Made by a program: the position numbers and the translations under genes. The notes beneath the pieces were generated by a model that had not been told where the DNA came from, did no database searches, and saw nothing but the letters and a program-made list of their open reading frames with translations. This document shows, piece after piece, positions 6,111 through 19,824 of a stretch of DNA of 21,199 bases (position 1 is its first letter; every line of letters starts with the position of its first letter). Source of the stretch: a virus; IMG/VR virus record IMGVR_UViG_3300027973_001265, positions 1-21,199 of that record; one strand, written 5' to 3'.

Positions 6111-6762
6111 CCACGAAGTCCTAGATTTAGGGCTAGTATATTATACAGATGTTATAAAAAATCCAGAGTCTTTAATTAAAAAGATAGAGGATCTAGATCT
6201 TATGATATCAAATGAAAAACGCCTTAATACATCTGTAAAACCTTGGACACCTTGGACCTATGGTGAAGGAGAAAATAAGTTGATGTTTTGTTGGCAAAAG
6301 TTTATTCCACAGGTAAAAGACATAGATCCTTCCGACTATTACAATGAACAGCAGACTGAAATATCTTCACAACTTTTTGAAGCATTAGATATAACGCTAG
6401 ACCACTACACAAAAGAACTTTATCCTTTTGCAAATAAAAACATAAAATCAAGAGAACAAACAATGCATCTTCTTAAATATGACGAAAGCGGACACCTTCC
6501 AGCACACCAAGATCAGGGAATTAGCAGCAGAGTTCTTTCTGTTCTCCTATACTTAAACGATGACTATGAGGGTGGAGAAATTGAATTTACGCACTCTAAA
6601 ATAAAGTTTAAGCCAAAATCTGGAAGCGTACTATTCTTTCCTTCAAACTTCCTTTATGTTCACGAGGTATATCCAGTCACAAAAGGACCAAGATATGCCT
6701 TGCCAAACTGGTACCACAATATTCCATTTAATGAAAAAAGAGATTCAACGGGTGAAGTATGA
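6097..6762 (+). CDS. 2-oxoglutarate/Fe(II) oxygenase, prolyl hydroxylase type
   Basis: A second P4H-type enzyme in tandem. Using the TTG at 6097 (AAAGGA at 6083-6088, eight bases upstream) it has 221 residues. An ATG at 6070 would add nine residues but lacks a good ribosome site. Metal ligands are His137 and Asp139 in PAHQDQG, with a distal His189 in YVHEVYP and Arg199 in GPRYALP. YEGGEIEF lies between, as in the family. It shares the fold, but little sequence, with the upstream enzyme. The stop overlaps the carbamoyltransferase ATG (ATGA). Confidence 0.85.
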   Translation: MSTFNHEVLDLGLVYYTDVIKNPESLIKKIEDLDLMISNEKRLNTSVKPWTPWTYGEGENKLMFCWQKFIPQVKDIDPSDYYNEQQTEISSQLFEALDITLDHYTKELYPFANKNIKSREQTMHLLKYDESGHLPAHQDQGISSRVLSVLLYLNDDYEGGEIEFTHSKIKFKPKSGSVLFFPSNFLYVHEVYPVTKGPRYALPNWYHNIPFNEKRDSTGEV

Positions 6763-8183
6763 TAATACTCGGTATTAATGAAACCAGTCATGACGCATCT
6801 GTGTCTTTAATTAAAGACGGAGAGATACTTTTTGCAGGGCATGCTGAAAGATATAGCAAACAAAAAAATGACTGGTACGTGAATGATAATTTAATAAAAG
6901 ATGCTTTACAGTACGGCAGACCAGATCACATTGCTTACTACGAAAAGCCCCTCCTAAAGGCCTCCAGACTGGCTTTAAAGGGTGGTTCTGGAGACTGGAA
7001 GCCAAGATTTGAACTTCCTGGAATTCCAAGAAAATCCTTCAGTCATCATTATTCACATGCAGCAGCAGGATACTACACAAGTTCTTTTAATGATGCAGTT
7101 ATCGTAGTGCTTGATGCGATTGGTGAATACAACACATCTACAATTTGGCTTGGCGAAGGCGATAAGATTAAGTTAAAGTATAAGCAAAATTATCCTATTA
7201 GTTTTGGATTGTTTTACTCAGCATTTACTCAGTTGATTGGTCTTATGCCTAACCAAGAAGAATATATTATGATGGGTATGGCTGCTTATGGAGACTGGAC
7301 AAAGTATTACAAAAAGGTAGATGAATATTTTCCACAGTACGATCAACAAAAATATAACTTTCATAAGGGAATTACTGACTGGGGATGGATTAGTTCAGAG
7401 CAAGATAAATTTGATATAGCAGCAGCAGTTCAAATGGTATATGAGCAAAGGCTTAACGATTTTATGCGTATGGCAAAGGCAATGACTGGGAAAAATAATT
7501 TAGTCTTTATGGGTGGATGTGCCCTTAACTCATCAGCAAATACTTTGTTGTGGAAAATATTTAAAGACATTTGGATCATGCCAAACCCAGGAGATGCTGG
7601 TAGTTCTTTGGGCGCAGCAGCAGCGTTATATGGAAAGCATGTTGACTGGAAAAGCCCGTACCTTGGGTACGATCTTGAAGGAAAATACCCTATTCAGAAA
7701 ATTGTTGACGGTATACTAAAAGATGGAATCGTAGCAGTAGCAACTGGTAAAGCAGAATATGGTCCAAGAGCACTTGGAAACAGAAGTATATTGGCCGATC
7801 CAAGAGACCCACTCATTAAAGATAAGGTTAATCTAATTAAACAGAGAGAAATGTTTAGACCATTTGCTCCAGTAGTTATGGCAGAGCATGCACATAAATG
7901 GTTTGATATGGACTTTGAAAGCCCTTATATGCAGTATACAGTTAAGTGCTTGCAGCCTGACAAGATCCCATCTGTAGTTCATGCAGACGGTACATCAAGA
8001 GTTCAAACAGTTACAAGAGAGCAGCATTCAGGCTTATACAGGGTTTTAAATAAGTTTTATCTTCAAACTGGTGTACCAATATTATTAAACACTAGCCTTA
8101 ACATAAAGGGACAGCCACTGTTGAATGACGAGGATGACATTATTAAATGGGAAAAAGAGTATAACTTCACAATATGCAGGTAA
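6759..8183 (+). CDS. NodU/CmcH-type O-carbamoyltransferase
   Basis: The 474-residue protein has both domains of the NodU family. The N-terminal Kae1-like part shows MIILGINETSHDAS (His11), FSHHYSHAAAG (His96-His100) and VVLDAIGE (Asp119). The C-terminal part shows AEYGPRALGNRSILADPR near residues 332-349 and the PFAPVVMAEH block. These enzymes activate carbamoyl phosphate with ATP to carbamoyl-adenylate and transfer it to a hydroxyl. The last stretch is slightly short, ending FTICR, as far as I recall also in other phage members. Oxygenases upstream could make the hydroxyl acceptor. Some viral homologues are reported to carbamoylate hydroxymethylated DNA bases. Confidence 0.92.
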   Translation: MIILGINETSHDASVSLIKDGEILFAGHAERYSKQKNDWYVNDNLIKDALQYGRPDHIAYYEKPLLKASRLALKGGSGDWKPRFELPGIPRKSFSHHYSHAAAGYYTSSFNDAVIVVLDAIGEYNTSTIWLGEGDKIKLKYKQNYPISFGLFYSAFTQLIGLMPNQEEYIMMGMAAYGDWTKYYKKVDEYFPQYDQQKYNFHKGITDWGWISSEQDKFDIAAAVQMVYEQRLNDFMRMAKAMTGKNNLVFMGGCALNSSANTLLWKIFKDIWIMPNPGDAGSSLGAAAALYGKHVDWKSPYLGYDLEGKYPIQKIVDGILKDGIVAVATGKAEYGPRALGNRSILADPRDPLIKDKVNLIKQREMFRPFAPVVMAEHAHKWFDMDFESPYMQYTVKCLQPDKIPSVVHADGTSRVQTVTREQHSGLYRVLNKFYLQTGVPILLNTSLNIKGQPLLNDEDDIIKWEKEYNFTICR

Positions 8184-10841: not shown

Positions 10842-11401
10842 AAAAAATTTTAGAAGATTTTAATTTTAAAAAGCATAGTTCTTATAGTGTTGAAAAAATT
10901 AAAGAACACATCGATGGATTTTCTGATGAATGGTTTATTAATACACAGAGACAAGAAAATGCTATTGTGCATAAAGATACAAACTCATATTTTGTCTACA
11001 CCTCAGACCTTACTTGGAAAGAAGTAGATGACTTTGCTACTCACACAACATCACAAGATACTGTATTGCTTGAACTACTTGAGCCAATAATTCTAGATCT
11101 TGAAAAAATACATAAAGGAACCAGGGGCATGGTTCTTTTAATTAAATTAAAAGCAGGTCAAGACATTGCCCCACATAAAGATTCAGGAGACTATCTAATG
11201 CTTTCAAGAAGAAATCATATACCAATAGTTACTTCTGATGATGTTTTTTTTAATGTAGATACTGAAAAGGTTAAAATGAGGTCTGGAGAATGTTGGGAAA
11301 TCAATAACTCAAAAGTTCATTTTGTAAACAACGGTAGTACAATAGACAGGGTTCACCTAGTAATTGACATAATGCCATATAAGGAGATAGAAAAAAAATG
11401 A
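10838..11401 (+). CDS. Aspartyl/asparaginyl beta-hydroxylase-like oxygenase
   Basis: The 187-residue protein matches the Asp/Asn beta-hydroxylase fold (PF05118 type). LLIKLKAGQDIAPHKDSG carries His113 and Asp115, RRNHIPI follows, then SKVHFVNNG with His161 and RVHLVIDI with Arg171. It would use Fe(II) and 2-oxoglutarate and is the fourth oxygenase of the window. It sits between the sulfotransferase and the APS kinase fusion, with overlaps on both sides, so it may create the hydroxyl that is then sulfated. That coupling is inference. Confidence 0.85.
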   Translation: MKKILEDFNFKKHSSYSVEKIKEHIDGFSDEWFINTQRQENAIVHKDTNSYFVYTSDLTWKEVDDFATHTTSQDTVLLELLEPIILDLEKIHKGTRGMVLLIKLKAGQDIAPHKDSGDYLMLSRRNHIPIVTSDDVFFNVDTEKVKMRSGECWEINNSKVHFVNNGSTIDRVHLVIDIMPYKEIEKK

Positions 11402-12159
11402 TTATACAAATTATCGGTCTTCCAGGTTCTGGAAAAACAGAACTTGCGAAAGCACTAAAAGAAAGAATTAATGCCATTCATCTTAATGCAGATGAGATTA
11501 GAGCAACAGTCAATTCTGACTTAGGATTTACCCCTGAAGATAGAATTGAGCAGGCTCGTCGTATGGGCGAGATGGCAAGACTGATTGCCAAGCAGGGTAT
11601 TGCTCCAGTAATTGTAGATTTTGTATGTCCAACAGATTTAACTCGTGCAGCATTTGAAAAGCCAGACATTTTGGTATTCATGAACACGATTGAAGAAGGA
11701 AGATTTGAAGACACCAACAAGATGTTTGAAATGCCAACAAACTATGACATTGCTTTTATAAGCCATGAATGGGACGCAAATGAAAAGGCATCGGTAATCA
11801 TTAATCAGTTTAACTTACATGACTGGTCTGCACCCACAACCCTTATGCTGGGTAGGTACCAGCCCTGGCACGAAGGCCACCACGCCCTTTATGAAGAGGC
11901 AGGCAAGAGAACAGATCAGGTACTTCTTGGAGTTCGTAATACATACAATACAAGTGAGAAAGATCCTCTTAAATTTGATCAAGTAAAAGAATATATTGCT
12001 AAAGATGAATTTATGGATGGAGCATTGGTATTGAGACTTCCTAACATTACTAACATAGTATATGGTCGTGATGTAGGATACAAAATTGAGCAAGTGAAAT
12101 TGGGTGATGAAATTGAATCTATTAGCGCTACTCAAAAACGTAAAGAACTGGGTATATGA
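11398..12159 (+). CDS. APS kinase-like / nucleotidyltransferase fusion
   Basis: The 253-residue protein has two domains. Residues 1-135 are APS kinase-like: P-loop GLPGSGKT (7-14), NADEIRATVNSDLGF (30-44) and an EDRIEQARRMGE helix, then VDFVCPT and FEDTNKMFEMP. Residues 146-253 form a cytidylyltransferase-like fold with the HxGH motif in GRYQPWHEGH (His158, His161) and ISATQKR near 242-248. The kinase part could make PAPS for the nearby sulfotransferase. The second part may adenylylate or cytidylylate a different substrate; it is too small to be a classical ATP sulfurylase. Overlaps link it to its neighbours. Confidence 0.8.
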   Translation: MIIQIIGLPGSGKTELAKALKERINAIHLNADEIRATVNSDLGFTPEDRIEQARRMGEMARLIAKQGIAPVIVDFVCPTDLTRAAFEKPDILVFMNTIEEGRFEDTNKMFEMPTNYDIAFISHEWDANEKASVIINQFNLHDWSAPTTLMLGRYQPWHEGHHALYEEAGKRTDQVLLGVRNTYNTSEKDPLKFDQVKEYIAKDEFMDGALVLRLPNITNIVYGRDVGYKIEQVKLGDEIESISATQKRKELGI

Positions 12160-14509: not shown

Positions 14510-14749
14510 ATGTACACAGACTCAATGAAAAGAGCGTTTAGATCTCTTACACCTCCCAAAAATTTTTCTTTACAGATTATTGACAATGATAATTTTTTAA
14601 CAGTAAAGGCTAAAGAAAAAGATTTTATGTCCTTAGAAACAGTTGAACTTAAAAAACAGGCTATAGAATATATGATACGTGTAAAAAAAGCATTGGAAGA
14701 CAATGGCGCTATAGTTTTACTGGTTCGTGAAGGTGGGAAAGAGATTTGA
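14510..14749 (+). CDS. Hypothetical protein of 79 residues
   Basis: The protein starts with ATG at 14510 after GGAG (14502-14505). It opens MYTDSMKRAFRSLTPPKNFSL and has a predicted helix ELKKQAIEYMIRVKKALED followed by a strand AIVLLVREG. The layout suggests a small alpha/beta domain. No family is recognised. Its stop TGA is shared with the halogenase's TTG start. Confidence 0.65.
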   Translation: MYTDSMKRAFRSLTPPKNFSLQIIDNDNFLTVKAKEKDFMSLETVELKKQAIEYMIRVKKALEDNGAIVLLVREGGKEI

Positions 14750-16263
14750 AAAATATAGTTGTAGTGGGTGGAGGTACAGCAGGATGGTTAACAGCCCTTG
14801 CTGCACAGAAAGGATATCCTGAGTGCTCAATCACTGTAATAGAGAGCAGAGAGATAGGAATTCTTGGAGCAGGAGAGGCATCGACCACATCTCTTATTGG
14901 ATTTTTAGAATATTTAGATATAGCAATTGAAGATTTAATCAAAGAAACAAGATCAACAATAAAGGTAGGAATTAAGTTTAATAATTTTAATGAAGATGAT
15001 GAAAGTTATTATCACGAGTTTGCTATTAATAGGCCTAACCCAAAAGCAAAAGAACTTTATTTAAAAAATAAACTAGGCAGCAGTTATCCCGTTCTGCATC
15101 TTTCTTGTATGTCAGAAAATTTGCCAGAAAAAGAATACAAATTAAGCGCCATGGCATTAGATTCAAACAATTTGCCATTTGTAAGTAAAAATGAAAATCC
15201 ATCAAAAATATCAGACTTTGAAGTATATAACTTATACGGAATACATTTTGACGCAAGAGCAATGGCTAAATTTCTGTCAGAAATTGCAATAAATCGTGGA
15301 GTAATTCACATAGATTCAGTGGTAGATAACTTTGTTCAGGATAATAATGAAAACATAGAAAGTATTAAGTTGATCGATGGCTCAACAATCAAGGCAGACT
15401 TTGTTTTTGATTGTACTGGTTTTTATAGAGTAGTAAATAAAAAACTTTTTAATACAGAGTGGGTAAGTTTTTCAAACAATTTACCAGCCAAAAGAGCGGT
15501 ACCATTTTTTCTTGATATTGATAAAGATGAAATACCAGCATACACAGAGTCTACTGCCATGAACTATGGCTGGATGTGGAAAATTCCTTTACAGCATAGA
15601 TATGGTTGTGGATATGTTTTTGATTCTAATTACATAACTGACGAGCAAGCCATATTGGAGATTGAAGAAAAACTAGGGCATAAGATTGAATCTCCAAAAA
15701 CATTTAGTTTTGAACCAGGGTACTACAAGACAATATGGAATAAAAATACTATAGCGGTAGGTCTTTCAGCAGGGTTTGTTGAACCTTTAGAGGCAACATC
15801 AATTATGCAGTCTGTAGAAACTCTTAGCCTTATTTTTAAAAATGGCTATGATATATTTAATCCAAAGGGTTTAGTTGCAATACTTAATAAAAAATATGCT
15901 GAAGATTGTGAAGAAATTCGTGACTTTTTGTACTTGCACTATATGACAAACAAAACTAATACAGACTTTTGGGCTAATTTTACTAAAAATAATACGATGC
16001 CAGAAAGTCTCAAGACTACTCTTGAAACACTTAATGCTATAGAATATGGTGAACTAAGAAAATCTTACTTTAATAAAATAAATTATTATATTATTATGTA
16101 TGGAAATAAAATATTAGATAAAGAGTTTTTAGAAAAGGCTAATATTGTTTTTAAAACAGAAAAAAATACAATAGAAAAAATTAATAAAAATAAAAAAGAT
16201 TTATCAAACAGTTTTATTAATCATTCTGAATTTATTAAGAAAGTTGGTGGTTTTAATGAATAG
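14746..16263 (+). CDS. Flavin-dependent (tryptophan-type) halogenase
   Basis: The 505-residue protein belongs to the flavin-dependent halogenases. It has the FAD-binding VVVGGGTAGWLTAL (residues 5-18), GAGEASTTS (41-49), the candidate catalytic Lys73 in STIKVGIKF, the diagnostic WMWKIP (276-281) and FVEPLEATS (344-352) for the active-site Glu. These enzymes make HOCl or HOBr at the flavin and halogenate indole or phenol rings or other substrates with reduced FADH2 from a partner. The start is TTG (14746), overlapping the previous stop. No flavin reductase is visible, so a host one may serve. The substrate is unknown. Confidence 0.9.
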   Translation: MKNIVVVGGGTAGWLTALAAQKGYPECSITVIESREIGILGAGEASTTSLIGFLEYLDIAIEDLIKETRSTIKVGIKFNNFNEDDESYYHEFAINRPNPKAKELYLKNKLGSSYPVLHLSCMSENLPEKEYKLSAMALDSNNLPFVSKNENPSKISDFEVYNLYGIHFDARAMAKFLSEIAINRGVIHIDSVVDNFVQDNNENIESIKLIDGSTIKADFVFDCTGFYRVVNKKLFNTEWVSFSNNLPAKRAVPFFLDIDKDEIPAYTESTAMNYGWMWKIPLQHRYGCGYVFDSNYITDEQAILEIEEKLGHKIESPKTFSFEPGYYKTIWNKNTIAVGLSAGFVEPLEATSIMQSVETLSLIFKNGYDIFNPKGLVAILNKKYAEDCEEIRDFLYLHYMTNKTNTDFWANFTKNNTMPESLKTTLETLNAIEYGELRKSYFNKINYYIIMYGNKILDKEFLEKANIVFKTEKNTIEKINKNKKDLSNSFINHSEFIKKVGGFNE

Positions 16264-17391: not shown

Positions 17392-17403
17392 TATAATAGA
17401 TAC

Positions 17404-17528
17404 TATTCCGCTATGAGACTTTAAAAAGGTTTTACAACGGATGTTCCCCTTGATGGGAAAGTTAGCAGGAGTCGAATCTTCGTGGCTAATAGACCTGAGC
17501 AGTCGTCTATAAACTGCTCATTTATTAT
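17404..17528 (+). ncRNA. Candidate structured RNA upstream of hsp20
   Basis: No frame of reasonable size lies between 17392 and 17593. The stretch can form ACTTT/AAGGT, TTCCC/GGGAA around CTTGAT, TTAGC/GCTAA enclosing GGAG/CTTC, and a TGAGCAG/CTGCTCA stem ending in TTTATTAT. A TATAAT (17392-17397) sits just before the block, so a small RNA is possible. The same bases could instead be a leader or only the operon terminator. Confidence 0.4.
17496..17528 (+). terminator. Intrinsic terminator
   Basis: TGAGCAG (17496-17502) pairs with CTGCTCA (17514-17520) around an 11-base loop, followed by TTTATTAT. Seven pairs and a T-rich tail make a moderate terminator, ending the upstream operon or the candidate RNA, and followed at once by the hsp20 promoter. 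Confidence 0.5.
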
Positions 17529-17593: not shown

Positions 17594-17998
17594 ATGGTAA
17601 AAACAGCACTGGATCTTTTTAATGATCCATTTTTTAATACCTTCTCAAATTTTCAGAAGGTAACAACAACAACAAACTATCCACCTTATAACCAGATTAA
17701 ACTAAATGATAAAGAATATATTCTTTCATTTGCTTTGGCTGGATTCTATAAGGATGATGTCTCAGTATCGCTAGACAATCGCAAACTTACAATAAAGGGC
17801 GAGAAGCAGGATGCTGAGTTACCAGAGGGTGCGGAGTATCTACATAAGGGCATTGCTGCTCGTAAGTTTACTGATATCTTCACCCTTCCTGAGTTTGTTG
17901 AGGTAGTTGGGGCTGAGTTTAAAGATGGTATCTTAGATATCAGACTTGAAAAGCAGATCCCAGAAGACAAACTGCCAAAAACAATCGCAATTAAGTAG
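17594..17998 (+). CDS. hsp20: Hsp20 small heat-shock protein
   Basis: The 134-residue protein is an alpha-crystallin-domain chaperone like IbpA: ILSFALAGFYKDDVSVSLD near residues 43-61, RKLTIKGEK, then FKDGILDIRLEK and the C-terminal TIAIK (I-x-I type) that binds neighbouring subunits. It holds unfolded proteins in soluble form. Phage hsp20 may help capsid assembly or protect the infected cell. It has its own promoter and a leader hairpin over its ribosome site. It stands apart from the flanking candidate RNAs. Confidence 0.92.
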   Translation: MVKTALDLFNDPFFNTFSNFQKVTTTTNYPPYNQIKLNDKEYILSFALAGFYKDDVSVSLDNRKLTIKGEKQDAELPEGAEYLHKGIAARKFTDIFTLPEFVEVVGAEFKDGILDIRLEKQIPEDKLPKTIAIK

Positions 17999-18010
17999 TA
18001 CAATATAAAT

Positions 18011-18096
18011 GTCCCCACACAGGACCTTAGTGATGGATTAGTTACCCATTGGATAGAGACCGTGGCGCAAGTCAGGTGAATTGCCTGTGTGGGGCC
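18011..18096 (+). ncRNA. Candidate structured RNA with three-way junction
   Basis: CCCCACACAGG (18013-18023) is perfectly complementary to CCTGTGTGGGG (18084-18094). Inside, GATGG pairs with CCATT (18032-18050), and ACC-G-TGGC pairs with GTCA-GGT (18059-18077) around a GCAA tetraloop. That gives three helices meeting at one junction. A TACAAT lies six bases before the first stem, in the hsp20 stop region. No known riboswitch is recognised, and the T-loop needed for a tRNA is absent. It lies just upstream of the HNH gene. Confidence 0.5.
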
Positions 18097-18110
18097 TCAA
18101 TATTGCACGG

Positions 18111-18116
18111 TATAAT
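18111..18116 (+). promoter_or_regulatory. -10 box for leaderless HNH transcript
   Basis: TATAAT (18111-18116) is seven bases before the ATG at 18124, which has no ribosome site. The RNA would start at or just before the start codon. No -35 box is visible; the stem of the candidate RNA occupies that region. Confidence 0.45.
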
Positions 18117-18123
18117 AGAAGCA

Positions 18124-18396
18124 ATGACTGACAAAGAGTTAGACCATTATAACAAGCAACAGTTTAAGAAGATGCTTGCCAAGATAAAGGAAGACTCTGG
18201 CTGTGTAGATTGTGGAATCAATAATCATATTATATTAGATTTTGACCACATAAAAGACAAGAAATACAATGTGTCCAGAATGATCCATGATGGTTTTTCA
18301 TGGAAGGCTATTAAGAAAGAGATTGAAAAGTGTGAGGTGGTTTGTGCTAACTGCCACAGAATAAGGACCCATAATAGACTTAACGGCATGCTATAA
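18124..18396 (+). CDS. HNH endonuclease, small
   Basis: The 90-residue protein has a zinc-ribbon HNH layout: CVDCG (Cys27, Cys30), ILDFDHIKDKK with Asp41-His42, then EVVCANCHRIRTHNR with Cys74, Cys77 and His78. A frame from 18049 covers the candidate RNA and is less likely. Free-standing HNH enzymes nick DNA in phages and act as homing or packaging nucleases. It is not fused to any other domain, so it is not an IscB-type protein. A -10 box seven bases before the ATG suggests a leaderless mRNA. Confidence 0.85.
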   Translation: MTDKELDHYNKQQFKKMLAKIKEDSGCVDCGINNHIILDFDHIKDKKYNVSRMIHDGFSWKAIKKEIEKCEVVCANCHRIRTHNRLNGML

Positions 18397-19518: not shown

Positions 19519-19520
19519 AG

Positions 19521-19593
19521 TACCCCTGGCAAGAATCGAACTTGCGACGCATGGCTTAGAAGTCCATCGTTCTGTCCACTGAACTACAGAGGT
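19521..19593 (-). tRNA. tRNA-Arg (TCT)
   Basis: A cloverleaf folds on the minus strand: acceptor ACCTCTG/CAGGGGT, discriminator A, D stem GTTC/GAAC, T stem GCAAG/CTTGC with loop TTCGATT. The anticodon loop CTTCTAA gives TCT at 19558-19560. It reads AGA, the commonest Arg codon in these phage genes by eye. CCA is not encoded. Confidence 0.92.
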
Positions 19594-19597
19594 AAAG

Positions 19598-19670
19598 TAT
19601 CTCCAACGGAATTTGAATCCGTGTTGCTGCCGTGAAAGGGCAGAGTCCTAGGCCACTAGACGATGGAGAC
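19598..19670 (-). tRNA. tRNA-Glu (TTC)
   Basis: The minus strand folds into a cloverleaf with acceptor GTCTCCA/TGGAGAT (first pair G-U), anticodon stem CTGCC/GGCAG around CTTTCAC with anticodon TTC at 19634-19636, and T stem ACGGA/TCCGT with loop TTCAAAT. Discriminator A, no CCA. It reads GAA. Confidence 0.93.
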
Positions 19671-19671
19671 T

Positions 19672-19745
19672 TGGAGCGGATGATGAGAATCGAACTCACC
19701 CCTTCTGCTTGGAAGGCAGAGGCACTACCAATATGCAACATCCGC
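19672..19745 (-). tRNA. tRNA-Gly (TCC) with encoded CCA
   Basis: On the minus strand GCGGATG pairs with CATCCGC, the anticodon stem TCTGC/GCAGA encloses CTTCCAA (anticodon TCC), and the T stem GTGAG/CTCAT encloses TTCGATT. After the discriminator T come CCA bases (19672-19674), so this tRNA alone of the five encodes its 3' CCA. One base separates it from tRNA-Glu. Confidence 0.93.
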
Positions 19746-19749
19746 ATCG

Positions 19750-19824
19750 TACACCAGGTAGGACTTGAACCTACGAATAGCCGAATTATGAGTTCGGTGC
19801 CTTAACCAACTTGGCTACTGGTGC
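19750..19824 (-). tRNA. tRNA-Met (CAT), elongator or Ile2-type
   Basis: The minus strand folds into a cloverleaf with acceptor GCACCAG/CTGGTGT and anticodon stem CCGAA/TTCGG around CTCATAA, giving CAT at 19788-19790. The T stem GTAGG/CCTAC closes TTCAAGT. Discriminator A, no CCA. A paired first acceptor position excludes initiator tRNA. If the C34 is modified to lysidine it would read the Ile codon ATA instead. Confidence 0.9.

Follow-up and report, generated by a model that had tools for sequence, protein, structure and literature searches.

A conserved phage-encoded small RNA as a probable trans-acting antisense RNA to H69 and H70 of host 23S rRNA

A small structured RNA, designated RNA1, is present in a window of 21,199 bases, an uncultured virus record described as a freshwater phage, and sequence comparisons suggest that it is probably a phage-encoded, independently transcribed, trans-acting antisense RNA to H69 of the host 23S rRNA and the adjoining strand of H70. 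The 87-nucleotide element (about 18011 to 18097, plus strand; cmsearch score of 94.1 bits) folds as a three-way junction. Its upstream neighbour, lying outside the RNA, is an Hsp20-family gene (17594 to 17998, plus strand; PF00011, E = 3.2e-16), while downstream there is a small HNH endonuclease gene of 90 amino acids (18124 to 18396, plus strand; PHROG 2255/3106/4234 HNH), to which RNA1 is genetically linked in these phages. The HNH gene had already been reported in a first-pass annotation of the same DNA, and its place downstream of the RNA is confirmed here.

The three-way junction proposed in that annotation is borne out. Its outer stem, P1, is an 11-base perfect inverted repeat in which CCCCACACAGG (18013 to 18023) is complementary at 11 of 11 positions to CCTGTGTGGGG (18084 to 18094; CCUGUGUGGGG in the RNA), with CG, UA, UG and AU exchanges in several pairs, and it encloses two inner stems, both found where they had been placed. 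The P2 hairpin, GAUGG-AUUAGUUAC-CCAUU (18032 to 18050, plus strand; as DNA, GATGG at 18032 to 18036 with CCATT at 18046 to 18050), has a loop complementary to the loop of H69 and is invariant in 60 copies save for variable loop positions. The P3 hairpin, capped by GCAA, reads ACC(g)TGGC-GCAA-GTCAGGT in the subclass of the window (18059 to 18077, plus strand) and GGC-NNNNGU-GCC in the other subclass. A weak U-rich tail follows the 3' strand of P1, reading CUUUUAA in many copies, and P1 therefore probably doubles as a terminator stem. With a minimum of -36.7 kcal/mol (z = -2.36) and 1 of 200 shuffles folding equally well, folding energy by itself is only moderate evidence for the structure. The comparative evidence is decisive, with P1 paired in 99.5% of cells across 60 distinct sequences and five of its pairs altered on both sides in 28 cells, a result matched by none of 500 shuffles and far above that of all slid versions. 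The exchanges include CACACAGG/CCUGUGUG to CAUACAGG/CCUGUAUG and, in the diverged copy L283, to CGUACAGG/CCUGUACG. RNA1 is thus a real, conserved and separate small RNA gene. The covariance search that had been advised in the first-pass annotation therefore came out clearly in favour of the fold, and the advised comparison with Rfam placed RNA1 in no family, with no match at either the gathering threshold or a relaxed E-value.

Pattern and BLAST searches of IMG/VR yielded more than 100 distinct copies of RNA1 in contigs of uncultured actinophages, with one copy per phage genome and some close relatives lacking it. On the host side, 84,980 species genomes gave 43 chance matches, none of them with the RNA1 fold, and 166 genomes of one actinobacterial order gave no RNA1 and one weak partial match of 19 nt. 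RNA1 was also absent from the Actinomycetia phage DSL-LC01, and searches for versions with a different P2 stem and the same loop returned no matches and then 14 coding coincidences.

The only invariant stretch of RNA1 is ACCUUAG(N)GAUGG(NN)UAGUUACC, together with the CAU that pairs within P2. In the window this core reads ACCUUAG-U-GAUGG-AU-UAGUUACC (18024 to 18046, plus strand) and is complementary to H69-H70 of actinobacterial 23S rRNA (GGUAACUAUAACCAUC-CUAAGGU), an identity that the first-pass annotation missed. When GGTAACTA-ATCCATCACTAAGGT is aligned with GGTAACTATAACCATC-CTAAGGT, the core corresponds to the reverse complement of actinobacterial H69 and the adjoining H70 strand, with 21 matches, 1 mismatch and 2 one-base indels. 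None of 40,000 shuffled cores reached its score against 23S rRNA, and H69-H70 was the best duplex site in the 23S piece (-28.0 kcal/mol; none of 60 shuffles as good). No match was found for RNA1 in 16S rRNA. The antisense match was a post hoc observation, and shuffling of the whole RNA gave a weaker, modest result in which 1 to 52 of 3,000 shuffles, depending on gap costs, did equally well; the main weight is placed on the core test, strong on its own, the core having been defined beforehand by conservation. Of the 21 complementary core columns, 20 are nearly invariant, and among the three variable columns two lack complementarity; the invariant columns are those pairing with rRNA or within P2. 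An extra nucleotide (A, U or C) is found at 18031 on the plus strand. Diverged copies retain the complementarity, with 21 or 22 columns matching in L283. As expected of a trans-acting antisense RNA, RNA1 is complementary to a specific target over a long stretch and more closely than by chance, and the pairing with 23S rRNA is computationally well supported and quite likely.

The host of the RNA1 phages is taken to be actinobacterial because whiB was detected in 14 of 14 related large phage contigs tested (among 14 control genomes one was positive, an actinobacterium). In the sampled actinobacterial order, the 23S genes found read CCATCCTAAGG / TAACTATAACCATCCTAAGGTAGCG, whereas E. coli 23S reads CGGTCCTAAGG / TAACTATAACGGTCCTAAGG at the same site. 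RNA1 scores 15.5 to 17 against actinobacterial 23S and 9.5 to 11 against that of E. coli. These readings and scores indicate a specific fit of the P2 strand GAUGG to the actinobacterial stem.

A follow-up search, in which the query had the form fitting E. coli-type 23S, revealed counterparts in other, unrelated phages. An IMG/VR contig (L506) carries CCUUAG-U-GACCGUUAUAGUUACGG, identical at 26 of 27 positions to antisense H69/H70, and intergenic antisense-H69/H70 elements occur in the cultured Enterovibrio phages 1.084.O, 1.101.O and 1.121.O, as well as in Aliivibrio phage HNL01, Pseudaeromonas phage KLEP7 and Vibrio phage IBT_VpB-34. The cultured phages with intergenic elements are under accessions MG592459.1 (L702), MG592473.1 (L706), MG592495.1 (L705), MZ456352.1 (L703), OM654377.1 (L707), OR712157.1 (L708) and PP468606.1 (L709). 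Staphylococcus phage SpP has a partial element, the 17-nt hairpin only. Most intergenic counterparts, including most of those in gamma-proteobacterial phages, share with RNA1 the extra nucleotide after CUUAG, and a consensus of [C]UUAG-N-GA(UG/CC)G followed by a loop with UAGUUAC, the complement of the host-type H69/H70, is found in RNA1, L506, 1.084.O, 1.101.O, HNL01, IBT_VpB-34 and KLEP7. A second element is also present in most of the gamma-proteobacterial phage RNAs: UCGCUACC is antisense to the next 23S stretch, GGUAGCGA, and absent from the query as well as from RNA1. A match in Rheinheimera Barba phage was dropped, being inside a coding gene and on the other strand. Downstream of the anti-H69 element there is an HNH nuclease gene in 1.084.O and a T5orf172-domain gene in 1.121.O.

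The cultured relatives were fetched with a query derived from H69, and their own match to H69 is not independent; independent evidence is given by the intergenic position, the second element and the empty controls. With a query antisense to the sarcin-ricin loop, the only records returned were 23S contaminants and a single match in coding sequence; a scrambled core found nothing. Among cultured phages, the actinobacterial-type query returned only 23S contaminants, and no cultured actinophage there had the element. These results bear on the reading that RNA1 is real and its likeness to H69/H70 coincidental, the core being conserved for contact with a protein, small molecule or other RNA. RNAs that bind proteins or ligands typically have invariant loops, and the search was open-ended, with up to 1.7% of whole-RNA shuffles doing equally well. 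A coincidence is nonetheless unlikely, considering that no shuffled core reached the observed score, that the stem matches the host type, and that intergenic elements with the same extra base recur in gamma-proteobacterial phages.

A large family of structured RNAs from uncultured phages, designated RNA-X and not in Rfam, comprises 123 distinct copies, 90 of which have a CGCUAC loop. The second element UCGCUACC is present in 90 of the 123. Two invariant segments, (C)UACCUUAGGACC and AUUCGCUAC, are jointly antisense to the contiguous 23S stretch GGUCCUAAGGUAGCGAA. The search patterns contained UUAGGACC, while AUUCGCUAC was outside them, and the evidence that counts is confined to UUAGGACC and AUUCGCUAC; UAGUUAC was rejected as evidence, having been imposed by the pattern, and in a pattern-free scan the hairpin was variable. 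RNA-X is a probable second antisense family, against H70/H71 of 23S rRNA; it fits the antisense theme less certainly and has a separate structure. A match to the 530 loop of 16S rRNA involves a 7-nt loop only and may be due to chance. Copies of RNA-X (L472 to L701, for example L595 and L534) follow stop codons and contain the segments CUACCUUAGGACC, GGCUGCUG, AUUCGCUAC and AAAGUGAGCA, and one IMG/VR contig bearing a copy (L550) also has a group I intron at 11273 to 11500.

RNA1 is predicted to be an independent short transcript starting at or beside P1, as a -10 box precedes it and a second one precedes the next gene. The first, TACAAT at 17999 to 18004 on the plus strand, had been pointed out in the first-pass annotation and predicts a transcription start at about 18010 to 18012; of 122 distinct copies, 119 keep TAYAAT no more than 24 nt upstream, compared with a frequency of 3.4% among random 26-mers drawn from these loci. 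The second, TATAAT at 18111 to 18116 (plus strand), belongs to the HNH gene, and a TATAAT or TATACT box occurs within 60 nt downstream of RNA1, between it and the HNH ATG, in 121 of 122 copies. The plus strand is taken to be the RNA because P1 has 20 G.U cells on this strand, with 3 unpaired, and each G.U would become A.C on the opposite one. It could be argued that the opposite strand is the functional one, as a mimic of H69 that titrates H69-binding enzymes or antibiotics, since the reverse strand also folds and contains an H69-like hairpin, a weak reverse-strand match. Such a decoy is highly improbable, as the 20 G.U cells of P1 and the G.U closing P2 would be lost to A.C, and both the -10 box and the weak terminator lie on the plus strand. 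In RNA-X, moreover, 108 of 110 cases have the antisense strand running in the same direction as the upstream gene, and all intergenic relatives inspected have it running in the direction of their nearest upstream gene.

The separate promoter of the HNH gene also bears on the suggestion in the first-pass annotation that RNA1 might act as a switch in the HNH leader through an alternative pairing of CAGG (18073 to 18076) with CCTG (18084 to 18087). Both motifs are present, but the pairing is limited to the window-type subclass; GUGCC stands at this place in the other one, and all copies require CCTG for P1. A P1-closed three-way junction ahead of an HNH gene would agree with a riboswitch or cis-acting leader, yet this reading is scarcely tenable when the HNH gene carries its own -10 box, the alternative pairing lacks conservation, a U-rich tail and no expression platform follows P1, and L283 and L314, the copies that diverge most, precede other genes with no HNH gene adjoining. 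No known aptamer family was matched in Rfam.

The association with the HNH gene was counted in loci fetched through neighbouring genes and not through RNA1. In two such sets, 47 of 52 and 38 of 68 loci had both RNA1 and HNH, and 5 and 28 had neither; two loci (L251 and L253) had HNH, at another site, without RNA1, and RNA1 without HNH did not occur. The linkage is therefore strong in these phages and not obligatory, with shared synteny contributing. It raises the question of whether RNA1 guides the adjacent nuclease to 23S rRNA or rDNA as a two-part, OMEGA-like system, a reading that these unbiased counts favour, as do the HNH ATG lying about 30 nt past RNA1 and the downstream HNH gene of phage 1.084.O, which follows a tRNA-like stretch. 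Such guidance is quite improbable, given that the two genes have separate promoters, that each occurs without the other in the four loci named above, and that the inspected regions beside the RNAs of HNL01, KLEP7, IBT_VpB-34 and L506 contain no HNH gene. The HNH protein also has only 90 amino acids, Rfam gives no HEARO match, and shared synteny largely explains the linkage. HEARO/OMEGA RNAs with IscB resemble RNA1 as non-coding RNAs adjoining an HNH gene, but in RNA1 the HNH gene is small and separately promoted, the RNA family is different, and HNH is sometimes missing. An assignment of RNA1 as a HEARO/OMEGA RNA was rejected, the partner being a PHROG HNH protein and not the RuvC-HNH type of IscB/IsrB.

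The RNA1 site holds exchangeable cassettes, each carrying a TATAAT of its own. In two phages without RNA1 and without HNH, it is occupied by a Dps-like gene (L168, 5537 to 5995; L222, 4457 to 4996) behind an RNA of RNA2 or RNA3 type. RNA2 is a second conserved stand-alone structured RNA (window 17404 to 17526, plus strand; -10 box TATAAT at 17392 to 17397; z of -3.4) that may form an H-type pseudoknot at its 3' end (ATAGAC/GTCTAT and TGAGCAG/CTGCTCA). Its 61 distinct representatives fall into two or more subtypes; RNA2 occurs also in phages without RNA1, and has neither rRNA complementarity nor an Rfam family. RNA3, a short RNA beginning UGUCGGGGGAGACAGCGACA (L046, L222, L307 and L252/L369), has a 3' pseudoknot-like segment in common with RNA2 and no complementarity to rRNA. 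In L252/L369 its 5' hairpin is fused ahead of RNA1, and phage RNAs of this kind thus recombine as modules. Elsewhere in the window there are a minus-strand cluster of four tRNAs at 19520 to 19824 (Arg-TCT, Glu-TTC, Gly-TCC and Met-CAT), a tRNA-Asn at 2459 to 2532, and genes for a tryptophan halogenase-like protein (14746 to 16263) and a Nol-like carbamoyltransferase (6759 to 8183).

In the proposed mechanism, the target of RNA1 would be H69 and the adjoining H70 strand, the core of intersubunit bridge B2a (structure, PMC3973299). P1 and P3 would serve as a scaffold displaying ACCUUAG at the junction and, within the P2 loop, UUAGUUAC, so that the latter would kiss the H69 loop and the former would pair with the CUAAGGU strand of 23S rRNA. 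Complementarity also links the 5' strand of P2 with the 3' strand of H69, so that the contact may extend into a duplex of about 21 bp, and we infer that such a duplex forms in the infected cell. The H69/H70 surface is largely buried in the 70S ribosome, and a complementary RNA should consequently meet free 50S subunits or their precursors. Tentatively, RNA1 may thus bind free or maturing 50S subunits with exposed H69 and hinder either the formation of 70S ribosomes or the maturation of 50S subunits, which would give the phage an advantage in competing for ribosomes. Counted against the antisense reading are the fact that the phage itself needs the ribosomes it would hinder, the lack of the second element in RNA1, and the lack of RNA1 in some close relatives. 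The main functional alternative to hindered subunit joining or maturation is that RNA1 pairs with H69/H70 as a shield from a host toxin, defence nuclease or modification. This alternative draws on the same complementarity, and the site is a known target in Actinobacteria, where mycobacterial MazF toxins cut 23S rRNA in H70 and TlyA and RluD modify H69. The antisense region stops short of the downstream UUCCU motif, however, and a shielding role is considered rather unlikely.

Several known RNAs share features with RNA1. Box C/D and H/ACA guide RNAs of Archaea and eukaryotes, whose targets include H69, are likewise small structured RNAs pairing with conserved rRNA centres. In contrast to them, RNA1 is phage-encoded in bacteria, has no conserved C/D or H/ACA boxes, and combines a covaried P1 scaffold with an antisense region covering the whole hairpin with a conserved extra base. 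Classification as a C/D-box guide was rejected, considering that the box C (RUGAUGA) position is variable (N at 18031) and the box D CUGA is absent from the window subclass. The expected pairing mode, a loop-loop contact followed by a longer duplex, resembles that of CopA/CopT, RNAI/RNAII and lambda OOP, but the target of RNA1 would be a host rRNA in trans instead of an mRNA or primer of the same replicon. T4 RNA C and RNA D are similarly short stable phage RNAs, the RNA1 locus also being near a tRNA cluster, and phi29 pRNA is another three-way-junction phage RNA; with none of these does RNA1 have a sequence or family relation, and Rfam finds none.

To our knowledge, no phage RNA has been described that controls the host ribosome by direct antisense pairing with its most conserved intersubunit bridge, and literature searches found no such RNA. 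It appears likely that several phage lineages of Actinobacteria, gamma-Proteobacteria and probably Firmicutes encode host-matched structured RNAs that pair with the H69-H70 bridge, as a general and previously unrecognised form of ribosome control. The existence of cultured members, such as phage HNL01 with Aliivibrio fischeri ES114 and Pseudaeromonas phage KLEP7, makes this proposal directly testable. If it is true, phages would control the host ribosome through direct antisense pairing with its most conserved intersubunit bridge, and many orphan phage RNAs would acquire a function. The stem sequence, GAUGG as opposed to GACCG, would serve as a predictor of host type, and antibiotics already target the site for which RNA1 would represent a natural antisense ligand.
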